From the NCBI GenBank assembly GCA_024397955.1, contig CP073744.1, forward strand, positions 992,001-1,056,000: a DNA stretch of 64,000 bases, read 5' to 3'. Shown here one piece after another: positions 31,736-45,598 of the stretch; position 1 is the stretch's first letter, and each line of letters begins with the position of its first letter. The notes beneath the pieces were generated by a model. It did not search any database. It was given only the letters and a program-made list of their open reading frames with translations, and was not told where the DNA came from. The DNA is from a bacterium SCSIO 12696 (GTDB taxonomy: Bacteria > Pseudomonadota > Gammaproteobacteria > Pseudomonadales > Porticoccaceae). Both the position numbers and the translations under genes were made by a program.

Positions 31736-34278
31736 CCCAGTGAAAACTGAAAGCTTTCTTCTTCATCCAAAGGCCCGGCGTTAAAGGGTTTGGAAATACT
31801 GAAAGTAATAGGACCAAACCCAGACAGCCAAGTGGCTCCCAAACCAAATGAATAGCGCAACTCGCCCACATCTGGCTTAAAGCAGTTCAAATCCGTTTGA
31901 CCTGGCAACAGGATCGGTTGGTCTCGAGCTTGAAGAACAGTGCCATTAACGCTCAGCAATGGGCCCCGAGGGTCATCGAAAGTGGTAATCCCAGTGGTAC
32001 ATTCCGTATCAAAAATGTTACCCGCGTCGACAAAAAAGCTGGCCTGAACTTGCGACTGATCTTTAATAAACGGCAGCGGGAAAATCACTTCCGCACTGGC
32101 TTCAACCGACACATTGCCACCGAAAGCAGACGTATTGTCCACATTCAGTCCACCCGGAAACTGGCTATTGAGGAATGCCTGCAAGGCCTCAGGGTCGTTT
32201 ATATCCACTGTATCATTTACGGGCAACACAGCACGGATACTTCTCGGCCCCAAGGTATTTCGTTCAAAACCGCGGATGGAGTTAAATCCTCCGCCAAAGA
32301 AGTTTTTATAAAATGGCAAACGCTCAGTGTCACTGAGACCATCTCCATAGCCTAATTCAGTGCGCAAACGCAGTGACCAGCCATTGAGGAATTTCGCCCA
32401 ACGCCCCAAAGGAAAATACTTCTGACCGCTATAGGTGAGTCGATAGTAAGAAAGATCACTGACGCCGGGAGGTGATATTTCCAGGCCGACATTCTGCCGC
32501 GCTCCGCTGGTAGCAAATACACTGCTGTTCAAGGTTGACTGCAGCCATCCAAAGTTCAACGTAAGAAAGTCGTTTTTAAAACCGTTATCCGCGACAAACT
32601 TCAACACTTCCGCAGAAGTGGTGCTCTCGCCAAGCTGCTGAAATTCATAGCCAAAGCCGTAGCTCAACCGCTGGGTGTTGGACAGTGGATAGCTGAAATT
32701 GACATTAATGCCCTGGTTTTCCGTATTAAAACCGCTCAGGTTAAAACGGGAAAAATCACTCTCACGGGCAAATACACTGAATCCTGCGCTCACCCCATCC
32801 ACGGTAAAGTAAGGATCGGTGTAGGAAATACTGAGGGACTTCTGGAAGTCGTTACGGTTCAGCGCGAAACCCACTGTTTTTCCGGTACCCAGGAAGTTAC
32901 TTTCACTAAGGTTACCACCCAGCTGCAAACCGGATGTTTGCGAGAAGCCAAACTGGGCGCCGATCTGACCCGACGGCTGTTCTTCAAAAGAAAAATTTAC
33001 ATCCACTTGGTCGTCAACACCCGGCACCTCTGGCGTATCCACCTCAATGGAGTCGCGTTTTACAAACGCGGTGCGCTGCAACCTCAGTTTACTGCCTTCG
33101 ATACGGGAATTAGACGCCACCGCCCCTTCCATTTGCAGCATTTCCCGGCGCACCACATCATCGGCGGTTTTGGTATTGCCGCGAATGTTGATGCGACGTA
33201 CATACACCCGTTTTTTCGGGTTGATGGCGATAGTCACCTTGGCGGTGCTGTCTTCACGATTCAGTTCCGGCACCGCCTGCACCTCGGCAAAGGTGTAGCC
33301 ATCGTTACCCAGACGCCGGGTAATCAAATCGACGCTGTAGTCAGCCAAGCTCTGGGAATAGGTCTTGTCTTCCTGTAAGACGATCAGGAAACGTAGCTGC
33401 TCTTCGGGAATCACCAGATCTCCCGACAGAGCAATTTCGCTCACGGTGTAGATATCCCCTTCTTCGATATTCACGGTCAGGTAAACCGATTTTTTGTCCG
33501 GACTCACGGACACCTGTGTGGATTTAACATTAAAGCCGAGATAGCCGCGATCTTTATAAAAAGATTCCAGGCGCTCTAAATCGCCTTGCAGCTTTTCACG
33601 GCTGTACTTGTCGTCATTGCGAAACCAGGACAGCCAGTTGCTGGTGGTCAATTCAAAGTCTTCCCGCAACACCTCTTCATCAAAGGTTTCGTTGCCGACG
33701 ATATTGATATGCTTAATGGCTGCTGGCTTGCCCTCGGTAATATCCAGAAAAACCGCCACCCGGTTGCGCGGCAACGGTTCAATGCGGCCTTCAACAGAGG
33801 AACCGTAAAGGCCGTTCTTGGCGTATTCCCCTTTCAAGCTCTGAGCAATACCGTCGAGGACATCGCGCTTGAAAATACGGCCTTCCGCCAGACCGTTGTC
33901 GCGCATACTGATCAACAATTGCTCTTCGGGAATTTTTTTACTGCCATCGATGGTGATGGATTCCACCGCTGGGCGCTCTTTCAAGCGAACGACCAGGCGG
34001 CCATTGTCTTCGGAAAAGGCAATATCTTCAAAATTTCCGGTTTTAAACAAGCTTCGCGCGGCTTGGCGTAACGTCTCTTCGTCGACCAGATCACCAACTG
34101 ATATGGGGAATGAGGCAAACACCTTGCCCGCAGAGACCCTTTGCAGCCCCTGAATATCAATATCGCGCACTTCAAAGACTTTGCCGTAAGCTGCGCCACT
34201 GAATAATCCCAGGGCCAGACAAACCCCTACCCACCTCTTTGCACTAAATAGATTTGCCATAAACTTCTTAGCAGTCAT
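31723..34278 (-). CDS. bamA: Outer membrane protein assembly factor BamA
   Basis: Central component of the BAM complex that inserts beta-barrel proteins. A signal peptide ends near GAAYGKVF. Five POTRA domains follow (about 35-430; the first begins FEVRDIDIQGLQRVSAGKVF). The 16-strand barrel shows the lid-loop motif GGFNSIRGFE, and the protein ends in phenylalanine (SLGNQF), the barrel-recognition signature. Length 851 residues, slightly longer than E. coli. The ATG overlaps the rseP stop as ATGA. Confidence 0.98.
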   Translation of the reverse strand: MTAKKFMANLFSAKRWVGVCLALGLFSGAAYGKVFEVRDIDIQGLQRVSAGKVFASFPISVGDLVDEETLRQAARSLFKTGNFEDIAFSEDNGRLVVRLKERPAVESITIDGSKKIPEEQLLISMRDNGLAEGRIFKRDVLDGIAQSLKGEYAKNGLYGSSVEGRIEPLPRNRVAVFLDITEGKPAAIKHINIVGNETFDEEVLREDFELTTSNWLSWFRNDDKYSREKLQGDLERLESFYKDRGYLGFNVKSTQVSVSPDKKSVYLTVNIEEGDIYTVSEIALSGDLVIPEEQLRFLIVLQEDKTYSQSLADYSVDLITRRLGNDGYTFAEVQAVPELNREDSTAKVTIAINPKKRVYVRRINIRGNTKTADDVVRREMLQMEGAVASNSRIEGSKLRLQRTAFVKRDSIEVDTPEVPGVDDQVDVNFSFEEQPSGQIGAQFGFSQTSGLQLGGNLSESNFLGTGKTVGFALNRNDFQKSLSISYTDPYFTVDGVSAGFSVFARESDFSRFNLSGFNTENQGINVNFSYPLSNTQRLSYGFGYEFQQLGESTTSAEVLKFVADNGFKNDFLTLNFGWLQSTLNSSVFATSGARQNVGLEISPPGVSDLSYYRLTYSGQKYFPLGRWAKFLNGWSLRLRTELGYGDGLSDTERLPFYKNFFGGGFNSIRGFERNTLGPRSIRAVLPVNDTVDINDPEALQAFLNSQFPGGLNVDNTSAFGGNVSVEASAEVIFPLPFIKDQSQVQASFFVDAGNIFDTECTTGITTFDDPRGPLLSVNGTVLQARDQPILLPGQTDLNCFKPDVGELRYSFGLGATWLSGFGPITFSISKPFNAGPLDEEESFQFSLGNQF

Positions 34279-35663
34279 CGTTGTTGTTGGTTGGTTATTG
34301 TACTTTCATCGGAACTGTCATCTGGCAGCTCACGGCGAATATCGTTGCCAATAGCAAAAATCATCAGACCCATCACCATGAACAGGCCTATTTTGTAGCC
34401 AATCATTTGTGTTTTTTCAGACACCGGGCTGCCTTTGATGGCCTCAGCGATGTAGTACATCAGGTGGCCACCGTCCAGCACTGGGATGGGTAGCAGGTTA
34501 AGTACACCCAGGCTAACACTGAGCAGAGCGAGGAAGCTCAGATACGAAACCAGCCCTCCCTCCGCTGTTTGGCCCGCCACTTTAGCAATGCCCAATGGTC
34601 CACTCAAGTGTTCCGCAGAAATCCGCCCCACAATCATTTTTTGGAGCGTTTGCAGAGTCATGGTTGTGGTGTCCCAAGTCTTGGCCAATGCCAAGCCAAT
34701 AGATTGGCCGGGCCCATATTGATCCAGGCGCCAGTAGCGGTTTAGTGCGGTAACACCAACCTGGCCAATGGTTTCACCATTAACGGTTACCGCTGCTGGC
34801 GTTACCGTCAATGACAATTCAGTACCTTGACGCTCTATCACCAAATCAATGGGCCGCTCCGCTCTGGGACGCACGTGCTCCACCCACTGGACCCAGTCTG
34901 CCAGTGGCTGCCCATCAGCGCTGATAATACGATCTCCCGCTTCAAGGCCAGCCCGTTGCGCCGGGCTGCCATCTGCAACCGAGCCCACCGCCGCATCCAG
35001 TGACGGCACCGTGAGCTGCAAACCAATGGCTTTGAGTAAATCCGGATTTTTGCTGTCCACATCCCAGTCGCCCAAATAGGTGGCGTAACTCAAGACCTGA
35101 TCAGAGCCGAGAGGAGATGCGGTGAATTGAATCTCCGACGTGTCGCCGAGACGCAGAATTAGTTGCTCGTGGAAGCTCTGCTGGGATGGGGTTTTCACAC
35201 CATCCACTGTCAATATTTCCAGGCCGGGTGTGAGACCAGCGCGATCGGCAATGGAGCCCGGCTCAACATCACCGACAATAGCGGCAACACCGATAACCCC
35301 ATGCATAAAAATAACCCAATAAAACACAATGGCCAAAACAAAATTGGCTACTGGGCCGGCCAGCACCACGGCAATGCGCTGCCACACAGGCTTGCGGTTA
35401 AAAGCATGGGGAAGGTCTTCGGCGGCAACATCCCCTTCACGCTCATCCACCATGCGCACATAGCCGCCCAGAGGGATCCAGGCGATTGTGAATTCCGTGC
35501 CGAGTTTATCGGTCCAGGAAAAAATAGGTTTACCAAAGCCTACCGAGAAACGCAGCACTTTGACGCCGCAGCGGCGGGCTACCCAAAAATGACCGAATTC
35601 GTGGAAGCTCACCAATACGCCCAAGGCGACAATGGTGTAAAAGACCGTGCTAACTATATCCAC
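34275..35663 (-). CDS. rseP: RIP zinc metalloprotease RseP
   Basis: Site-2 intramembrane protease that finishes cleavage of anti-sigma factors. The zinc motif HEFGH is at residues 21-25, inside the first membrane helix. Two periplasmic PDZ domains follow (about 125-200 and 215-300; GSIADRAGLTPGLEILTVDG and GSPAQRAGLEAGDRIISADG). The third zinc ligand region is LLPIPVLDGGHL near the C-terminus. Length 462 residues. It may also act on the anti-sigma factor at 44019-44747 (inference). Confidence 0.97.
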   Translation of the reverse strand: MDIVSTVFYTIVALGVLVSFHEFGHFWVARRCGVKVLRFSVGFGKPIFSWTDKLGTEFTIAWIPLGGYVRMVDEREGDVAAEDLPHAFNRKPVWQRIAVVLAGPVANFVLAIVFYWVIFMHGVIGVAAIVGDVEPGSIADRAGLTPGLEILTVDGVKTPSQQSFHEQLILRLGDTSEIQFTASPLGSDQVLSYATYLGDWDVDSKNPDLLKAIGLQLTVPSLDAAVGSVADGSPAQRAGLEAGDRIISADGQPLADWVQWVEHVRPRAERPIDLVIERQGTELSLTVTPAAVTVNGETIGQVGVTALNRYWRLDQYGPGQSIGLALAKTWDTTTMTLQTLQKMIVGRISAEHLSGPLGIAKVAGQTAEGGLVSYLSFLALLSVSLGVLNLLPIPVLDGGHLMYYIAEAIKGSPVSEKTQMIGYKIGLFMVMGLMIFAIGNDIRRELPDDSSDESTITNQQQR

Positions 35664-42001: not shown

Positions 42002-42757
42002 CTATCTGGAAAAGTGGTAACTCACCCCTACAACCACCTGGCTGCCGGTGCGCACGTCATTAAAAAAGCCACTGGTATTGCCACTGTAGTGGTATTCCAA
42101 AGAACCCACCCAATGCTTGGCAAATGGGCGACCAATGCTGAATCTCGCGTAGTGATACTGGTCGCCATTCAGCTGCCCCAAATCCACTAGCCCAACTTCT
42201 ACTTCACCAACGCTCTGCCAGGGAAGGTGCTGACGAACCGTCGCAGAAACCACCAGTTGGTTCTGATTGGTATTCCAAATGGAATCGGTGTAGGCAGCGA
42301 ACAAAGTCAGGCTATCCTGGTAGTCCAGCTGAATTCGCCGCTCCTGATAGTCGGCATTGCGAGATAGATTTTGCTGACGATATTCCAGCCAGGCATTGCT
42401 GACACTGAGCTGCCAATCGTCAGTTAACAAACGACGATAACCAATACTGTACTCCGCTTCCCAGTCCCTCGACTGAGCCTGGCCACCTAAACCGCCAATA
42501 TCCGCTTTCGCCAACCAGGCTGATGCAAACCAACCGGACTCATGCCCCAACCAGGCTTTTACCTGTGGAGTCACAGTCTCCTCAGCCAGAGAAATACCGC
42601 GATAAATGTAGTCAGAAGAAACCGACAACGCACCATTAAATTGCCAGGGGCTGCGATCATCATCGGCTTGCACAGAATACGCACACAGCAAAAAAAGCAA
42701 CACCACCGTGTGGAGTTGCCAGCGACTGTTAACAGGAATAGTCAGTTGCTTATTCAA
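42002..42757 (-). CDS. TorF-family putative outer-membrane porin
   Basis: Predicted beta-barrel protein of 251 residues with a signal peptide ending near YSVQADDD. The opening strand SVSSDYIYRGISLAEETVTPQ is the signature of the Gcw_chp/TorF family, members of which carry repeated alternating strands such as YSIGYRRLLTDDWQLSVSNAWLEY and end with GVSYHFSR. It lies two bases downstream of the subtilase gene and is apparently last in the sigma/anti-sigma operon, so it may be that regulon's outer-membrane component. The transported substrate is unknown. Confidence 0.75.
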   Translation of the reverse strand: MNKQLTIPVNSRWQLHTVVLLFLLCAYSVQADDDRSPWQFNGALSVSSDYIYRGISLAEETVTPQVKAWLGHESGWFASAWLAKADIGGLGGQAQSRDWEAEYSIGYRRLLTDDWQLSVSNAWLEYRQQNLSRNADYQERRIQLDYQDSLTLFAAYTDSIWNTNQNQLVVSATVRQHLPWQSVGEVEVGLVDLGQLNGDQYHYARFSIGRPFAKHWVGSLEYHYSGNTSGFFNDVRTGSQVVVGVSYHFSR

Positions 42758-42759
42758 GG

Positions 42760-44019
42760 TTATTTGAGAGGGCTCCTGGAATCACGAGGCGTGTTTTCAA
42801 CAGGCACCATCTGTTTAAGTTGGGCCACCACCTGCCCAGGGTTCAAATTGGGCTGTTTTTCTTTCATTAATGCCGCCAAAGCCGACACCTTGGCTGCGGA
42901 CATGGAGGAACCGGAGAAAAAGTCGAAACCGCCATCGGGGGCGGTGGTGAGCACATTGGCGCTGTTGAGGTGAACGAGCAATCTGCGTTCGTCACTGTCT
43001 GGTGGTTTCCGGCAAACACCAATCACACCGGGCAGCCGAGCGGGATAACCTATGTTTGCATCCCCGGGATCTGCGGCCACCACCAGAATATTCCGTTTCA
43101 GGGCTTGAGCCACCAAACGGGCAATCAACGGATCTTGAGGGCCTGCCAGGCTCATATTGATAATATCCGCACCACTGTCTATGGCGTGACTGATGGCACT
43201 GGCCACGGTAAAGCTGTTGCAGTGGGCTTTACTGGTACTGTCACCAAGCTGCCAGCAAGCCTTGAGCACTGACACGTCTGCGTCGGGGGATAAACCAACA
43301 ATGCCCAGCTCATTGTTGGGCTGGGCAGCGATGATACCGGCAACGGCAGTGCCATGAATATCGGCTCGAAAACGTTGACTGTTGTTATCAACAAAATTTT
43401 CCACCGCCTTAATTTGGGGTTTTAGCTCCGGGTGGCGAACATCGGCACCGGTATCGATCACCATTATTTTCACCCCTCTTCCGGTAGCTTCCCGGTGGAG
43501 GCTGGCAATGTGCTCACGACTGTTTTGGTACTGCAGTTCGAAGTAAGGATCGTTGTACGGAGCGCTCTGAACCGAATAACTGACCATCTGCTGTACAGAT
43601 TCAATGCGGCGATCGTTGCGCAGCTGCTGCATCACATCCGCCACGACCAAGCTATCGGGGATCCCCAGCAAAACGCAGTAAATGGACAGGGAATTAATCA
43701 ACCAACCGCGCTCTTCCCGCAATTGGTAATCTCGGGCAATGTCTTTTACCTGGCGTCGCACCAGCAGTGTACTGTTGTAATTCAACGGTGCCTGATAATT
43801 GCGCCCAAACGAACGCACAGCGGCATTCTCTTTAGCAGCATCGTGAGTCAGTGTTACCAGTATTGGAGTGAACCCACTGGGCACACTAACGCCCCGCTCC
43901 GGGATAAACTGATCCAGTGACACTTGCTTATGTTGTGAGCTGCCACAGGCAGACAGCACCAGGGCAAACAACACTGCCGTCACTGTTTTTAAGCGAGCAC
44001 TGCCAATCACTAAAGCCAT
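42760..44019 (-). CDS. S8 (subtilisin-like) lipoprotein with I9-like prodomain
   Basis: The 419-residue protein starts at 44019, where ATG overlaps the anti-sigma stop as TAATG; a longer reading adds a non-secretory N-terminus. A lipobox (VLSAC, Cys25) indicates export and lipidation. Residues about 105-150 (YCVLLGIPDSLVVADVMQQLRNDRRIESV) look like an inhibitor I9 propeptide. The triad is D189 (VIDTGAD), H222 (DIHGTAVAGI) and S372 (SGSSMSAA). The usual oxyanion motif AAGN reads AADPGD (315-320), so the asparagine is missing, and the residues after the serine differ from the usual pattern. It may be a weak protease, a binding protein, or specialised for the anti-sigma factor beside it. Confidence 0.85.
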   Translation of the reverse strand: MALVIGSARLKTVTAVLFALVLSACGSSQHKQVSLDQFIPERGVSVPSGFTPILVTLTHDAAKENAAVRSFGRNYQAPLNYNSTLLVRRQVKDIARDYQLREERGWLINSLSIYCVLLGIPDSLVVADVMQQLRNDRRIESVQQMVSYSVQSAPYNDPYFELQYQNSREHIASLHREATGRGVKIMVIDTGADVRHPELKPQIKAVENFVDNNSQRFRADIHGTAVAGIIAAQPNNELGIVGLSPDADVSVLKACWQLGDSTSKAHCNSFTVASAISHAIDSGADIINMSLAGPQDPLIARLVAQALKRNILVVAADPGDANIGYPARLPGVIGVCRKPPDSDERRLLVHLNSANVLTTAPDGGFDFFSGSSMSAAKVSALAALMKEKQPNLNPGQVVAQLKQMVPVENTPRDSRSPLK

Positions 44020-44747
44020 TACTGCATTTCCTGCTGAGATGCCCTGGGGGAATGAACCGACGGCTCTGCCAGTTTTACCCAAGGGCTGCCACGCAAATTG
44101 TGCAATACCAATTCCTGCTGAGCTGAGGGCTTAAGGGTGGATATGGTATACAAACCCGCTTTTGATGGCCCACTGATAATCTGTGCATCCACATTATTCA
44201 GCAAATTTCGGATATCCACTTCTGTTGCAGCAGGCTGAAAGATTACCCGGTACACCTGGCTGTGCTCTGCTGCAGCACGCACCAAATCATCATCACTGGA
44301 GTAGGTTTCCAGGGTAACACCTTGCGGCTTCCCAGGCAGCACAACCAGTAAGCTCACCACCAAAACCAGGCACGCTGCCTGAGCCCACATCACTGTTTTT
44401 GCAGCTTTCGGTGTGCCAGACCACTGGCGTTGCCAACTGGATAGCCAGGTGACTTTGCCACCGTGGCTGCTCTGAGGTGCGGCTTGGCCATCGATTGCTC
44501 TCAAGGTCTTTTCCAAGTTGGCTTCCATCCGCTGGGTAGTGAGTAACTCTTCCAGCTCTGTAGGCTCAGTGCGGATGGCATCCACCACTTGCTGGGCTTG
44601 CTGCAACTCAGCGAAACAAACTTCGCATTGGGCCACATGCTCCTGAACTTGGCGCTGTTGAGCCGCATTTAACTGGCCGTTGACAAAACTCGGGAGCATT
44701 GCCTGGCATTGGTCGTGGTAAAGCGGCCTGGGTGCGTCGCTTTTCAT
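44019..44747 (-). CDS. Zinc-finger transmembrane anti-sigma factor
   Basis: Predicted to hold the adjacent ECF sigma factor at the membrane. The N-terminal zf-HC2/ZAS motif is H37-x3-C41-x2-C44 with C14 or H11 as further ligand. A single membrane helix lies near residues 117-137 (AQAACLVLVVSLLVVL). The roughly 100-residue periplasmic part (VYRVIFQPAATEVDIRNLL...AGLYTIS...LHNLRGSPWVKLAEP) has the strand-helix-strand pattern of subtilisin I9-type prodomains; this is a visual resemblance. It overlaps the sigma gene by four bases and the subtilase by one, indicating strict coupling of the three. Confidence 0.88.
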   Translation of the reverse strand: MKSDAPRPLYHDQCQAMLPSFVNGQLNAAQQRQVQEHVAQCEVCFAELQQAQQVVDAIRTEPTELEELLTTQRMEANLEKTLRAIDGQAAPQSSHGGKVTWLSSWQRQWSGTPKAAKTVMWAQAACLVLVVSLLVVLPGKPQGVTLETYSSDDDLVRAAAEHSQVYRVIFQPAATEVDIRNLLNNVDAQIISGPSKAGLYTISTLKPSAQQELVLHNLRGSPWVKLAEPSVHSPRASQQEMQ

Positions 44748-45355
44748 GGTGTTTCCCCCTTTACTGCCGGGATTGGCACAGTATCGTGGCCAAATACCCT
44801 TTTAAAAATTTTGCGTGCATGGAATAGACGCGTTTTAACCGTATTGGCCGGACATTCCATAATTTGGCCGATTTCCTCGCAGGTGTAGCCGGATTGGTAA
44901 GCCAGCTCAACGCAACTTCTCTGTTCTGGCGACAGATGTTGCATGGCCTGCTCAATTTCCTGACGGCTATCCCAGCGCTCCACTTCATTGTCGGTGGCCT
45001 CCTGCTCTGGCACTGCGTCCAGATCCTGGCTGGCATGCTTCTCAAGTTTACGGGCTGCTTCCCAGCACTTGCGCATACCAATCCCCATAATCCAGGTAGA
45101 TACACGGGATTCGCCACGAAAATCGCTGGCTTTTTGCCAGGTAGTCAACAGAGTATCGTTAACCACCTCCTCAATAACATCCAACTGCTTCAGATAGCGA
45201 TAGGCAAAGCGGGTCAGCAGTGGGTAGTAACGGCGATACAGGGCTGAAAAAGCTTTTTTATCCCCTGCACCCGACGCCTGCAATAACTGCAAATCCAGCT
45301 GATCCTGTTTTTGAACTTGGTTATTCAATAGTCCACATCCACTCGCTTTCGACAC
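44744..45355 (-). CDS. ECF RNA polymerase sigma factor
   Basis: Extracytoplasmic-function sigma factor of 203 residues. Region 2 is seen in DKKAFSALYRRYYPLLTRFAYRYLKQLDVIEEVVNDTLLTTWQKASDFRGESRVSTWIMGI and region 4 in LSPEQRSCVELAYQSGYTCEEIGQIMECPANTVKTRLFHARK. The first codon used here is a GTG without a clear ribosome site; TTG codons about ten codons further on (near GGA) are alternatives, so the N-terminus is uncertain. It is first in the sigma-anti-sigma-subtilase-porin set. The exact ECF subgroup cannot be assigned by eye. Confidence 0.92.
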   Translation of the reverse strand: MSKASGCGLLNNQVQKQDQLDLQLLQASGAGDKKAFSALYRRYYPLLTRFAYRYLKQLDVIEEVVNDTLLTTWQKASDFRGESRVSTWIMGIGMRKCWEAARKLEKHASQDLDAVPEQEATDNEVERWDSRQEIEQAMQHLSPEQRSCVELAYQSGYTCEEIGQIMECPANTVKTRLFHARKIFKRVFGHDTVPIPAVKGETP

Positions 45356-45383
45356 CTGTTAGTGGCCGCTACCCAAAAAAAGG

Positions 45384-45401
45384 TTCATTCAATGGAATGA
45401 A
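45384..45401. promoter_or_regulatory. Perfect palindrome upstream of the ECF sigma gene
   Basis: TTCATTC-AATG-GAATGAA, a 7-bp perfect inverted repeat with a 4-base spacer, lies 28 bases upstream of the assigned sigma start, in its promoter or leader. On the plus strand it is followed by a T-run. It is a candidate operator or hairpin; no known regulator is implied. Confidence 0.4.
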
Positions 45402-45480: not shown

Positions 45481-45598
45481 GTCTTAACCCGGCAGCAGTT
45501 GGTTCTGTATTTTTAGGCCCGGCTGTCTGTCAGAGAGTATCCCCAAACTCAATCAACCGGGTTAGACTTTTTGCCCCGCCAACTGGCGGGGCTTTTTT
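45481..45598 (+). ncRNA. Candidate small RNA with intrinsic terminator
   Basis: A closing stem is formed by GTCTTAACCCGG (45481-45492) and CCGGGTTAGAC (45557-45567), pairing 11 bp with one bulge. It encloses about 64 bases and is followed five bases later by a textbook terminator at 45573-45598. No plus-strand gene lies upstream, and on the minus strand the terminator is followed by A, not T, so it does not serve the MFS gene. These features suggest an independent plus-strand transcript. The 5' end, promoter and function are not determined; the gap 45356-45480 holds the sigma promoter region and a C-rich stretch. Confidence 0.4.
45573..45598 (+). terminator. Strong plus-strand intrinsic terminator
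   Basis: Stem GCCCCGCC (45573-45580) with GGCGGGGC (45585-45592), loop AACT, followed by six T. It is oriented for plus-strand transcription, although all neighbouring genes are on the minus strand. Confidence 0.85.

Follow-up and report, generated by a model that had tools for sequence, protein, structure and literature searches.

Introduction

What triggers each extracytoplasmic function (ECF) sigma-factor system is a long-standing question. The site-1 proteases named in PMC7593790 include DegS, DegP, SipS, SipT and Prc, the words 'subtilase' and 'subtilisin' being missing from its main text, and the PDZ domains of RseP are described in the same source as acting as a size filter. In the neighbourhood of ECF54, as given in the sections of PMC8999054 that treat this group, a subtilase, a carboxypeptidase and CHAT proteins are found without an anti-sigma factor, and the proteases are proposed to act on the sigma factor. 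The present analysis concerns a cassette of four genes, encoding an ECF sigma factor, a membrane-bound anti-sigma factor, a family S8 subtilase and a TorF-like outer-membrane protein, in a stretch of the 2.93 Mb genome of bacterium SCSIO 12696 (contig CP073744.1, positions 992,001 to 1,056,000; this full stretch of 64,000 nt is referred to as the window, and coordinates are positions within it).

As judged from sequence profiles and predicted folds, the periplasmic C-terminal domain of the anti-sigma factor is, at the level of the family, a subtilase prodomain, and this identity of the sensor is what is considered to be new. The best explanation found for the cassette, held with slightly better than even confidence, is that of a self-contained envelope-signalling switch. 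In this explanation the anti-sigma factor would serve as a membrane-tethered bait for, or inhibitor of, its own protease, the destruction of the prodomain being the site-1 event and RseP finishing the cleavage. If this is true, a widespread ECF group for which no description was found would gain a concrete, testable sensing mechanism, in which a protease and its inhibitor domain have been reused as a membrane signalling pair; for the question of the trigger, the sequence suggests two partners and a contact to mutate.

Organization of the cassette

All four genes lie on the minus strand. The sigma gene (44744-45355, with a GTG start; Pfam Sigma70_r2 and r4_2) overlaps by 4 bases the gene of the membrane-bound anti-sigma factor (44019-44747), which in turn overlaps by 1 base that of the S8 subtilase, a predicted lipoprotein (42760-44019, ATG start; Peptidase_S8, 112 bits); after a gap of 2 bases follows the gene of the TorF/Gcw_chp-like outer-membrane protein (42002-42757, TTG start). 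Open reading frames for the four genes that a first-pass annotation had claimed, with these overlaps and this gap, were all recovered. The last protein matches Pfam Gcw_chp (PF09694) at 32.8 bits against a cut-off of 24, while the related NCBIfam TorF porin model TIGR02001 reaches 44.5 bits, below its cut-off of 47.15, and for this reason the name TorF-like is used. In the host genome the cassette subtilase is the sole S8 match, both matched stretches lying inside its gene, and the cassette anti-sigma factor is the sole zf-HC2 match; Gcw_chp matches two genes, the second of which lies elsewhere.

The anti-sigma factor combines a zf-HC2 domain (residues 13-44; 28.2 bits against a cut-off of 22.2 in Pfam), one predicted membrane helix and the periplasmic prodomain. 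In its AlphaFold2 model a single long helix, residues 114-136, stands between zf-HC2 and the C-terminal domain, and is predicted from its hydrophobic sequence to span the membrane. With an ECF sigma gene beside that of an anti-sigma factor in which a cytoplasmic sigma-binding domain is joined to a single predicted membrane helix, the cassette has the composition of a pair controlled by regulated intramembrane proteolysis.

A prodomain-like sensor on the anti-sigma factor

The region beyond the helix, some 70 residues long, has the consensus RVVF...L...A.IV.GP...G.Y.L...AL..LR....V..AEP and corresponds in the window to residues 165-233 (44049-44255, minus strand). The assignment of this domain to the subtilase prodomains is based on the agreement of PF22148 matches, profile-profile comparison and the fold order predicted by AlphaFold2. 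PF22148 (Fervidolysin_NPro-like) matches 43/68 whole anti-sigma factors at E values of up to 1 (best 2.5e-8) and 51/66 isolated C-terminal domains at E values of up to 10 (best 9.6e-9); near-duplicates had been removed by hand before these scans, which covered 68/83 anti-sigma factors, 66/83 domains and 65/88 subtilases.

Compared by hhalign with ordinary subtilase prodomains from 15 open reading frames, a set that was drawn from loci retrieved with PF22148 and is not blind to that family, the anti-sigma domain gave a probability of 97.0 (E 8.7e-11) over 64 columns, in an alignment that takes in the terminal V-x-x-A-E-P. In the same comparison the four controls (profiles of two subtilase segments, TorF and sigma) gave 0.1-0.2, and the subtilase's own N-terminal domain gave 75.3. 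The set left out L203, L220, L222 and L230-L232 (cassette genomes) and L226-L228 (short frames); two of its 15 rows, L206 and L215, were kept in spite of having been mis-extracted. Against the prodomain of the neighbouring subtilase itself the anti-sigma domain gave a probability of 85.0, with seven controls at 0.1-1.6.

AlphaFold2 arranged residues 164-229 of the anti-sigma factor as beta-alpha-beta-beta-alpha-beta, with block-mean values of the predicted local distance difference test (pLDDT) of 89-96 and an overall predicted template-modelling (pTM) score of 0.40. In the subtilase's own prodomain the elements follow in the same succession, within residues 50-144. The AlphaFold2 model, a conserved Glu and the hhalign result together indicate a prodomain-type fold with an AEP-type terminal strand.

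The subtilase and its own prodomain

In the alignment of 88 subtilases, Asp189 and His222 of the catalytic triad are present in every row and Ser372 in 87, the remaining row having a gap; the enzyme has the Asp-His-Ser triad of family S8, and since this triad is intact it could act as a site-1 protease. Two further residues, Cys255 and Cys267, are invariant. When the subtilase model was submitted to Foldseek the best match was unprocessed pro-subtilisin E, fervidolysin ranking eighth. The window protein has the lipobox LSAC, with Cys25 as its cysteine. Lipoprotein status as a trait of the whole family was rejected, a lipobox being found by regular expression in 37/80 and a Cys aligned with Cys25 in 56/88.

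The subtilase's own prodomain (residues 50-150; 43570-43872, minus strand) has diverged and is poorly recognized by PF22148, which matches 3/65 with a best E value of 0.11. The canonical Glu of the AEP end caps a subtilisin helix in the prodomain complex. This Glu is kept in 68/80 anti-sigma domains and is replaced by Gln in 81/85 of the subtilases' own prodomains (counts deduplicated by omission of L020, L021 and L028), and the anti-sigma domain may consequently be the stronger binder of the two.

Pairing of the domain with the subtilase

The pairing was assessed in 398 genomes, with E values of at most 1e-40 for the subtilase profile and at most 1e-4 for the prodomain profile. The former was found in 21 genomes and the latter in 35, with 18 in common, and in each of these 18 both matches lie within about 1.4 kb on the same strand. 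Among the other 17 genomes with the domain, 13 have an S8 gene beside it and four have none, so that an S8 neighbour accompanies the domain in 31/35. The three subtilase genomes missed by the prodomain search encode an anti-sigma factor whose prodomain is matched less strongly; in all 21 subtilase genomes (all 38 genomes were checked) the adjoining protein aligns to almost the whole anti-sigma profile, as it does in 11 of the 13 other genomes with an S8 neighbour. Zinc ligands were rejected as a mark of the family: the pattern H-x(2-4)-C-x-x-C occurs in only 8 of the 21 anti-sigma factors from the S8 genomes, and many members without it still match the anti-sigma profile.

These counts bear on a simpler view, already put forward in the first-pass annotation, in which the subtilase is a plain dedicated site-1 protease that cuts in the linker between the membrane and the C-terminal domain, the prodomain fold being a docking handle or a leftover. 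The conserved operon and the intact triad would suit such a protease, and according to PMC7593790 membrane anti-sigma factors are usually controlled by regulated intramembrane proteolysis. This view is nevertheless improbable, as it leaves unexplained both the consistent pairing of domain and subtilase (31/35) and the conserved AEP end.

Conservation and gene order

Among 293 genomes of the order, nine have a subtilase match at E values of at most 1e-20. One of these, G245, has a large S8 protein with the other cassette genes not nearby; besides this genome and the window, all seven remaining loci contain the sigma, anti-sigma, subtilase and TorF-like genes, TorF lying 5' of sigma in L018. At least 518 looser subtilase matches, which may include ordinary S8 genes, were obtained from named genomes, and the best 80, from Pseudomonadota and Acidobacteriota according to their titles, were analysed. 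In 68/80 the sigma, anti-sigma and subtilase genes follow in that order on one strand. The recurrence in genomes of the order and in named relatives rules out an oddity of the window, and with it the possibility entertained in the first-pass annotation that the gene order occurs only in this strain. In 38 of the 59 scored loci there is an overlap of 4 bases between the anti-sigma stop and the subtilase start, a count favoured by the choice of the start codon nearest to that stop.

The 68 ordered loci divide into sigma-anti-S8-TorF (32), TorF-sigma-anti-S8 (24), sigma-anti-S8 (11) and sigma-anti-S8 with an opposed TorF (1). TorF thus stands 5' of sigma in 24/80 loci and after the subtilase in 32/80; in 11/80 no TorF was seen beside sigma-anti-S8, some of these loci being cut by contig ends. 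A TorF-like gene is present near 57 of the 68 cassettes and is the least tightly attached of the genes. The remaining 12/80 loci show other arrangements, cut contigs or unlinked genes: no sigma or anti-sigma gene is closer than 6 kb to the S8 gene of L049, L087 and L098, and a contig end truncates L058, yet all four genomes still encode a full-length anti-sigma factor of the cassette type.

The conserved order, the frequent overlap and the near-exclusive pairing suggest that the subtilase is a dedicated partner of the sigma and anti-sigma factors. To this extent the first-pass view of the subtilase as cognate to this pair is supported, whereas the prodomain link and the lack of the oxyanion-hole Asn, considered below, had been missed.

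An RseP gene at 34275-35663 (minus strand; Peptidase_M50 and PDZ) provides the genome with a site-2 protease. It was correctly recognized at the outset, but its closeness to the cassette appears to be incidental and was rejected as an argument for linkage, since the gene adjoins and belongs with bamA. Of the seven further loci of the order that contain the cassette, for which 10-17 kb were fetched, six showed none of four flanking genes of the window (major facilitator superfamily (MFS), rpsB, tsf and ligA). Only Porticoccus sp. W117, among eight loci of the order, matched the flanking genes. In that genome the cassette (L012:6178-9540, against 42002-45355 in the window) lies in reverse orientation between the corresponding MFS and rpsB genes, and the inverted segment takes in about 240 bp in front of sigma, including the hairpin described next and the promoter.

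The window has a strong GC hairpin with a plus-strand T tract, resembling a terminator, at 45573-45592 between the MFS gene and sigma; it is conserved in Porticoccus sp. W117 and moved there with the cassette. That genome also has a further open reading frame between sigma and rpsB (L012, 9868-11190). No subtilase match at E values of at most 1e-20 came from G181, a third member of the genus; this genome was rejected as an empty insertion site because, with ligA and the MFS gene present, rpsB was not found within the 16 kb fetched, which leaves no clean site. Two copies of the subtilase occur in one genome (G383:C1; L101 and L121), each with a prodomain encoded beside it.

Promoter, start codon and regulon

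Upstream of sigma the window contains the motif TGAACCTT-N16-ACTAAC (45358-45387, minus strand), the only strict match in the whole genome, which is presumed to be an autoregulatory promoter of ECF type. The dyad TGAAC-16-GGAA occurs in 19 of 69 deduplicated upstream regions (taken from 80 sigma genes), whereas the best dyad in each of ten shuffles reached 4-5. In a set of 76 upstream regions a stricter form of the motif was found in 29, against a shuffled mean of 1.94 and a maximum of 5 in 50 shuffles, and a looser form in 50, against a shuffled mean of 5.48; one spacing is shared by 26 of the 30 matches listed for the stricter form, six spacings having been allowed. From this set L028 was dropped as a duplicate of L015, and L012, a duplicate of L020, was not added; L021 and its duplicate L013 were both left out, so that their species is missing.

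Because the motif ends two bases before the GTG, the in-frame TTG at 45328 is the probable start codon of sigma, which would then have 194 residues. The sigma reading frame claimed at 44744-45355 is therefore present, with a GTG start that is probably wrong and should lie 27 bases further inward.

A wider regulon was considered and rejected: a search of the host genome with two mismatches gave 14 matches against 41 for a backwards control, and with more matches for the control than for the motif there is no basis for a regulon larger than the operon. A match with a single mismatch lies at G000:C1:1654622. By its operon position, the TorF-like gene of the window is under the same promoter as sigma. 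An own copy of the promoter in the TorF-first loci was rejected, as the 260 bp before TorF contain the strict motif in 0/24, and TorF is for this reason perhaps not under the sigma promoter everywhere.

It is very doubtful that the subtilase and TorF are mere members of the regulon, engaged in envelope quality control while the ECF factor senses something else. A single conserved promoter motif before sigma fits this idea, as does the separation of the subtilase from sigma and anti-sigma in L049, L087 and L098, but the prodomain homology between anti-sigma factor and subtilase would then be a coincidence, and the lack of the strict motif upstream of TorF in the TorF-first loci also speaks against it.

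Proposed mechanism and the evidence against it

From the features above we infer a scheme of binding, inhibition, cleavage and autoregulation, with a part for RseP, a signal and any role that TorF may have. The ECF sigma factor would be held by the one-helix membrane anti-sigma factor, whose prodomain would be bound by the lipoprotein subtilase, facing the periplasm, as if it were the prodomain of the enzyme itself; domains of this kind fold, act as inhibitors and in the end are digested by subtilases. At rest, this would give a tethered, inhibited complex that keeps the subtilase near the membrane. An envelope signal, in which the TorF-like outer-membrane protein perhaps takes part, would lead the slow protease to digest the prodomain, and with the bulky domain lost the stump of the anti-sigma factor would become a substrate of RseP, in line with the size-filter role that PMC7593790 describes for the PDZ domains. 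The freed sigma factor would then transcribe its own operon from the conserved promoter and so reset the system.

Several observations weigh against this interpretation. For the window's own domain PF22148 is the sole family listed, with an E value of 0.044 and 14.6 bits against a cut-off of 21, and a search of the host genome with PF22148 returned nothing at E values of at most 0.001, so that it is the family that carries the prodomain assignment. The anti-sigma model had no Foldseek match at E values of at most 0.001, and a translation factor ranked first; the propeptides 3whi, 1spb_P, 1scj_B and 2z58_B are in the top 24, but the fold is a common one. The domain profile retrieved no propeptide in a sequence search of the PDB, only unrelated weak matches. 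Evolutionary distances correlate at 0.67 to 0.69 for domain and S8, 0.65 for domain and sigma and 0.64 for domain and TorF, and coevolution was rejected as proof of contact because distances over the 60 loci correlate throughout the cassette and do not discriminate.

The pairing has its exceptions as well. In four genomes (G516, G641, G496 and G585) the domain is without an S8 neighbour, and in G483 and G591 it lies in a short protein whose match to the anti-sigma profile is confined to the C-terminal half, with no sigma factor detected at either locus, though S8 neighbours are present. In G516 the neighbour of the domain is a caspase-type Peptidase_C14.

The subtilase itself deviates from its family. 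At aligned column 319, the place of the oxyanion-hole Asn of the AAGN motif, none of the 88 rows has an Asn; in a gapped stretch an Asn stands one column earlier in four rows and one later in five, and a loose AAxN is found in 2/88. An ordinary S8 protein (L019), aligned to the family profile, has AAAGN. Membership of S8 is retained on account of the profile match and the triad, the missing Asn being regarded as a deviating feature, but without the oxyanion Asn the subtilase is expected to be slow, and it could be a very weak protease. Moreover, the anti-sigma chain terminates where a prodomain is normally cut, and the usual processing site is consequently absent.

The same features lend themselves to an alternative that is possible, if unlikely, in which the anti-sigma prodomain is a chaperone in trans that helps the subtilase to fold and reports its abundance or occupancy. 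A subtilase busy with misfolded envelope proteins would leave the anti-sigma factor open to another site-1 protease, for instance DegS, and would itself be an effector or a sensor rather than the site-1 protease. Help in trans is plausible because the subtilase's own prodomain has diverged, in its PF22148 matches (3/65) as in the change of Glu to Gln (81/85); a slow enzyme is compatible with this role, and an anti-sigma factor that ends at the cut point suits a bound inhibitor better than a substrate. On the other hand, the AlphaFold2 model of the subtilase retains a folded prodomain of its own.

A broader statement may be made, to which a little less than even confidence is attached: the sensor of the anti-sigma factor would be a captured protease prodomain, the pair having been split into a lipoprotein protease and a tethered inhibitor whose destruction triggers transcription. 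Were this true, the caspase-type variant (G516, L155) would place the cassette in a class of switches that each combine sigma, anti-sigma and a protease.

At L155:3950-5985 a sigma factor and a prodomain-bearing anti-sigma-like protein are followed by a Peptidase_C14 caspase in the place of the subtilase, possibly a swap of the protease within the same switch. Weaker prodomain-like matches were seen in anti-sigma-like proteins at L166:3184-6201 and L157:3287-5358, with an adjacent SulP-type transporter, as judged by eye, and no S8 gene was detected near either.

Comparison with known systems

No description of the cassette or of a prodomain-bearing anti-sigma factor was recognized in the literature, judged mostly from listings; the term 'undescribed', used in the first-pass annotation, is supported only in part, and the main ECF classification may already list the gene association, so that earlier notice there is possible. 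ECF54 resembles the cassette in having a subtilase conserved in the ECF neighbourhood, and differs, according to the ECF54 sections of PMC8999054, in that a membrane anti-sigma factor is conserved in the cassette. FecI/FecR/FecA likewise brings together an outer-membrane protein, an anti-sigma factor and an ECF sigma factor in one locus, but the outer-membrane protein of the cassette is Gcw_chp/TorF-like, and neither a FecR domain nor a TonB-dependent receptor was found in the four window proteins (Pfam, E values of up to 1).

With RseA/DegS/RseP (sigma-E, AlgU/MucA) the cassette shares an ECF sigma factor, a one-helix anti-sigma factor, a candidate exported serine protease and RseP; it differs in that its candidate protease is a subtilase and not an HtrA-type PDZ protease, and in that its sensor domain appears to be a subtilase prodomain. 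The prodomains and inhibitors of family I9 (pro-subtilisin E, fervidolysin and POIA1, the last a free inhibitor) are linked to the cassette domain by profile match, fold order and the terminal AEP. Unlike them, the cassette domain is carried by a transmembrane anti-sigma factor and is encoded apart from the protease, and to our knowledge it is the only prodomain found in such a position.

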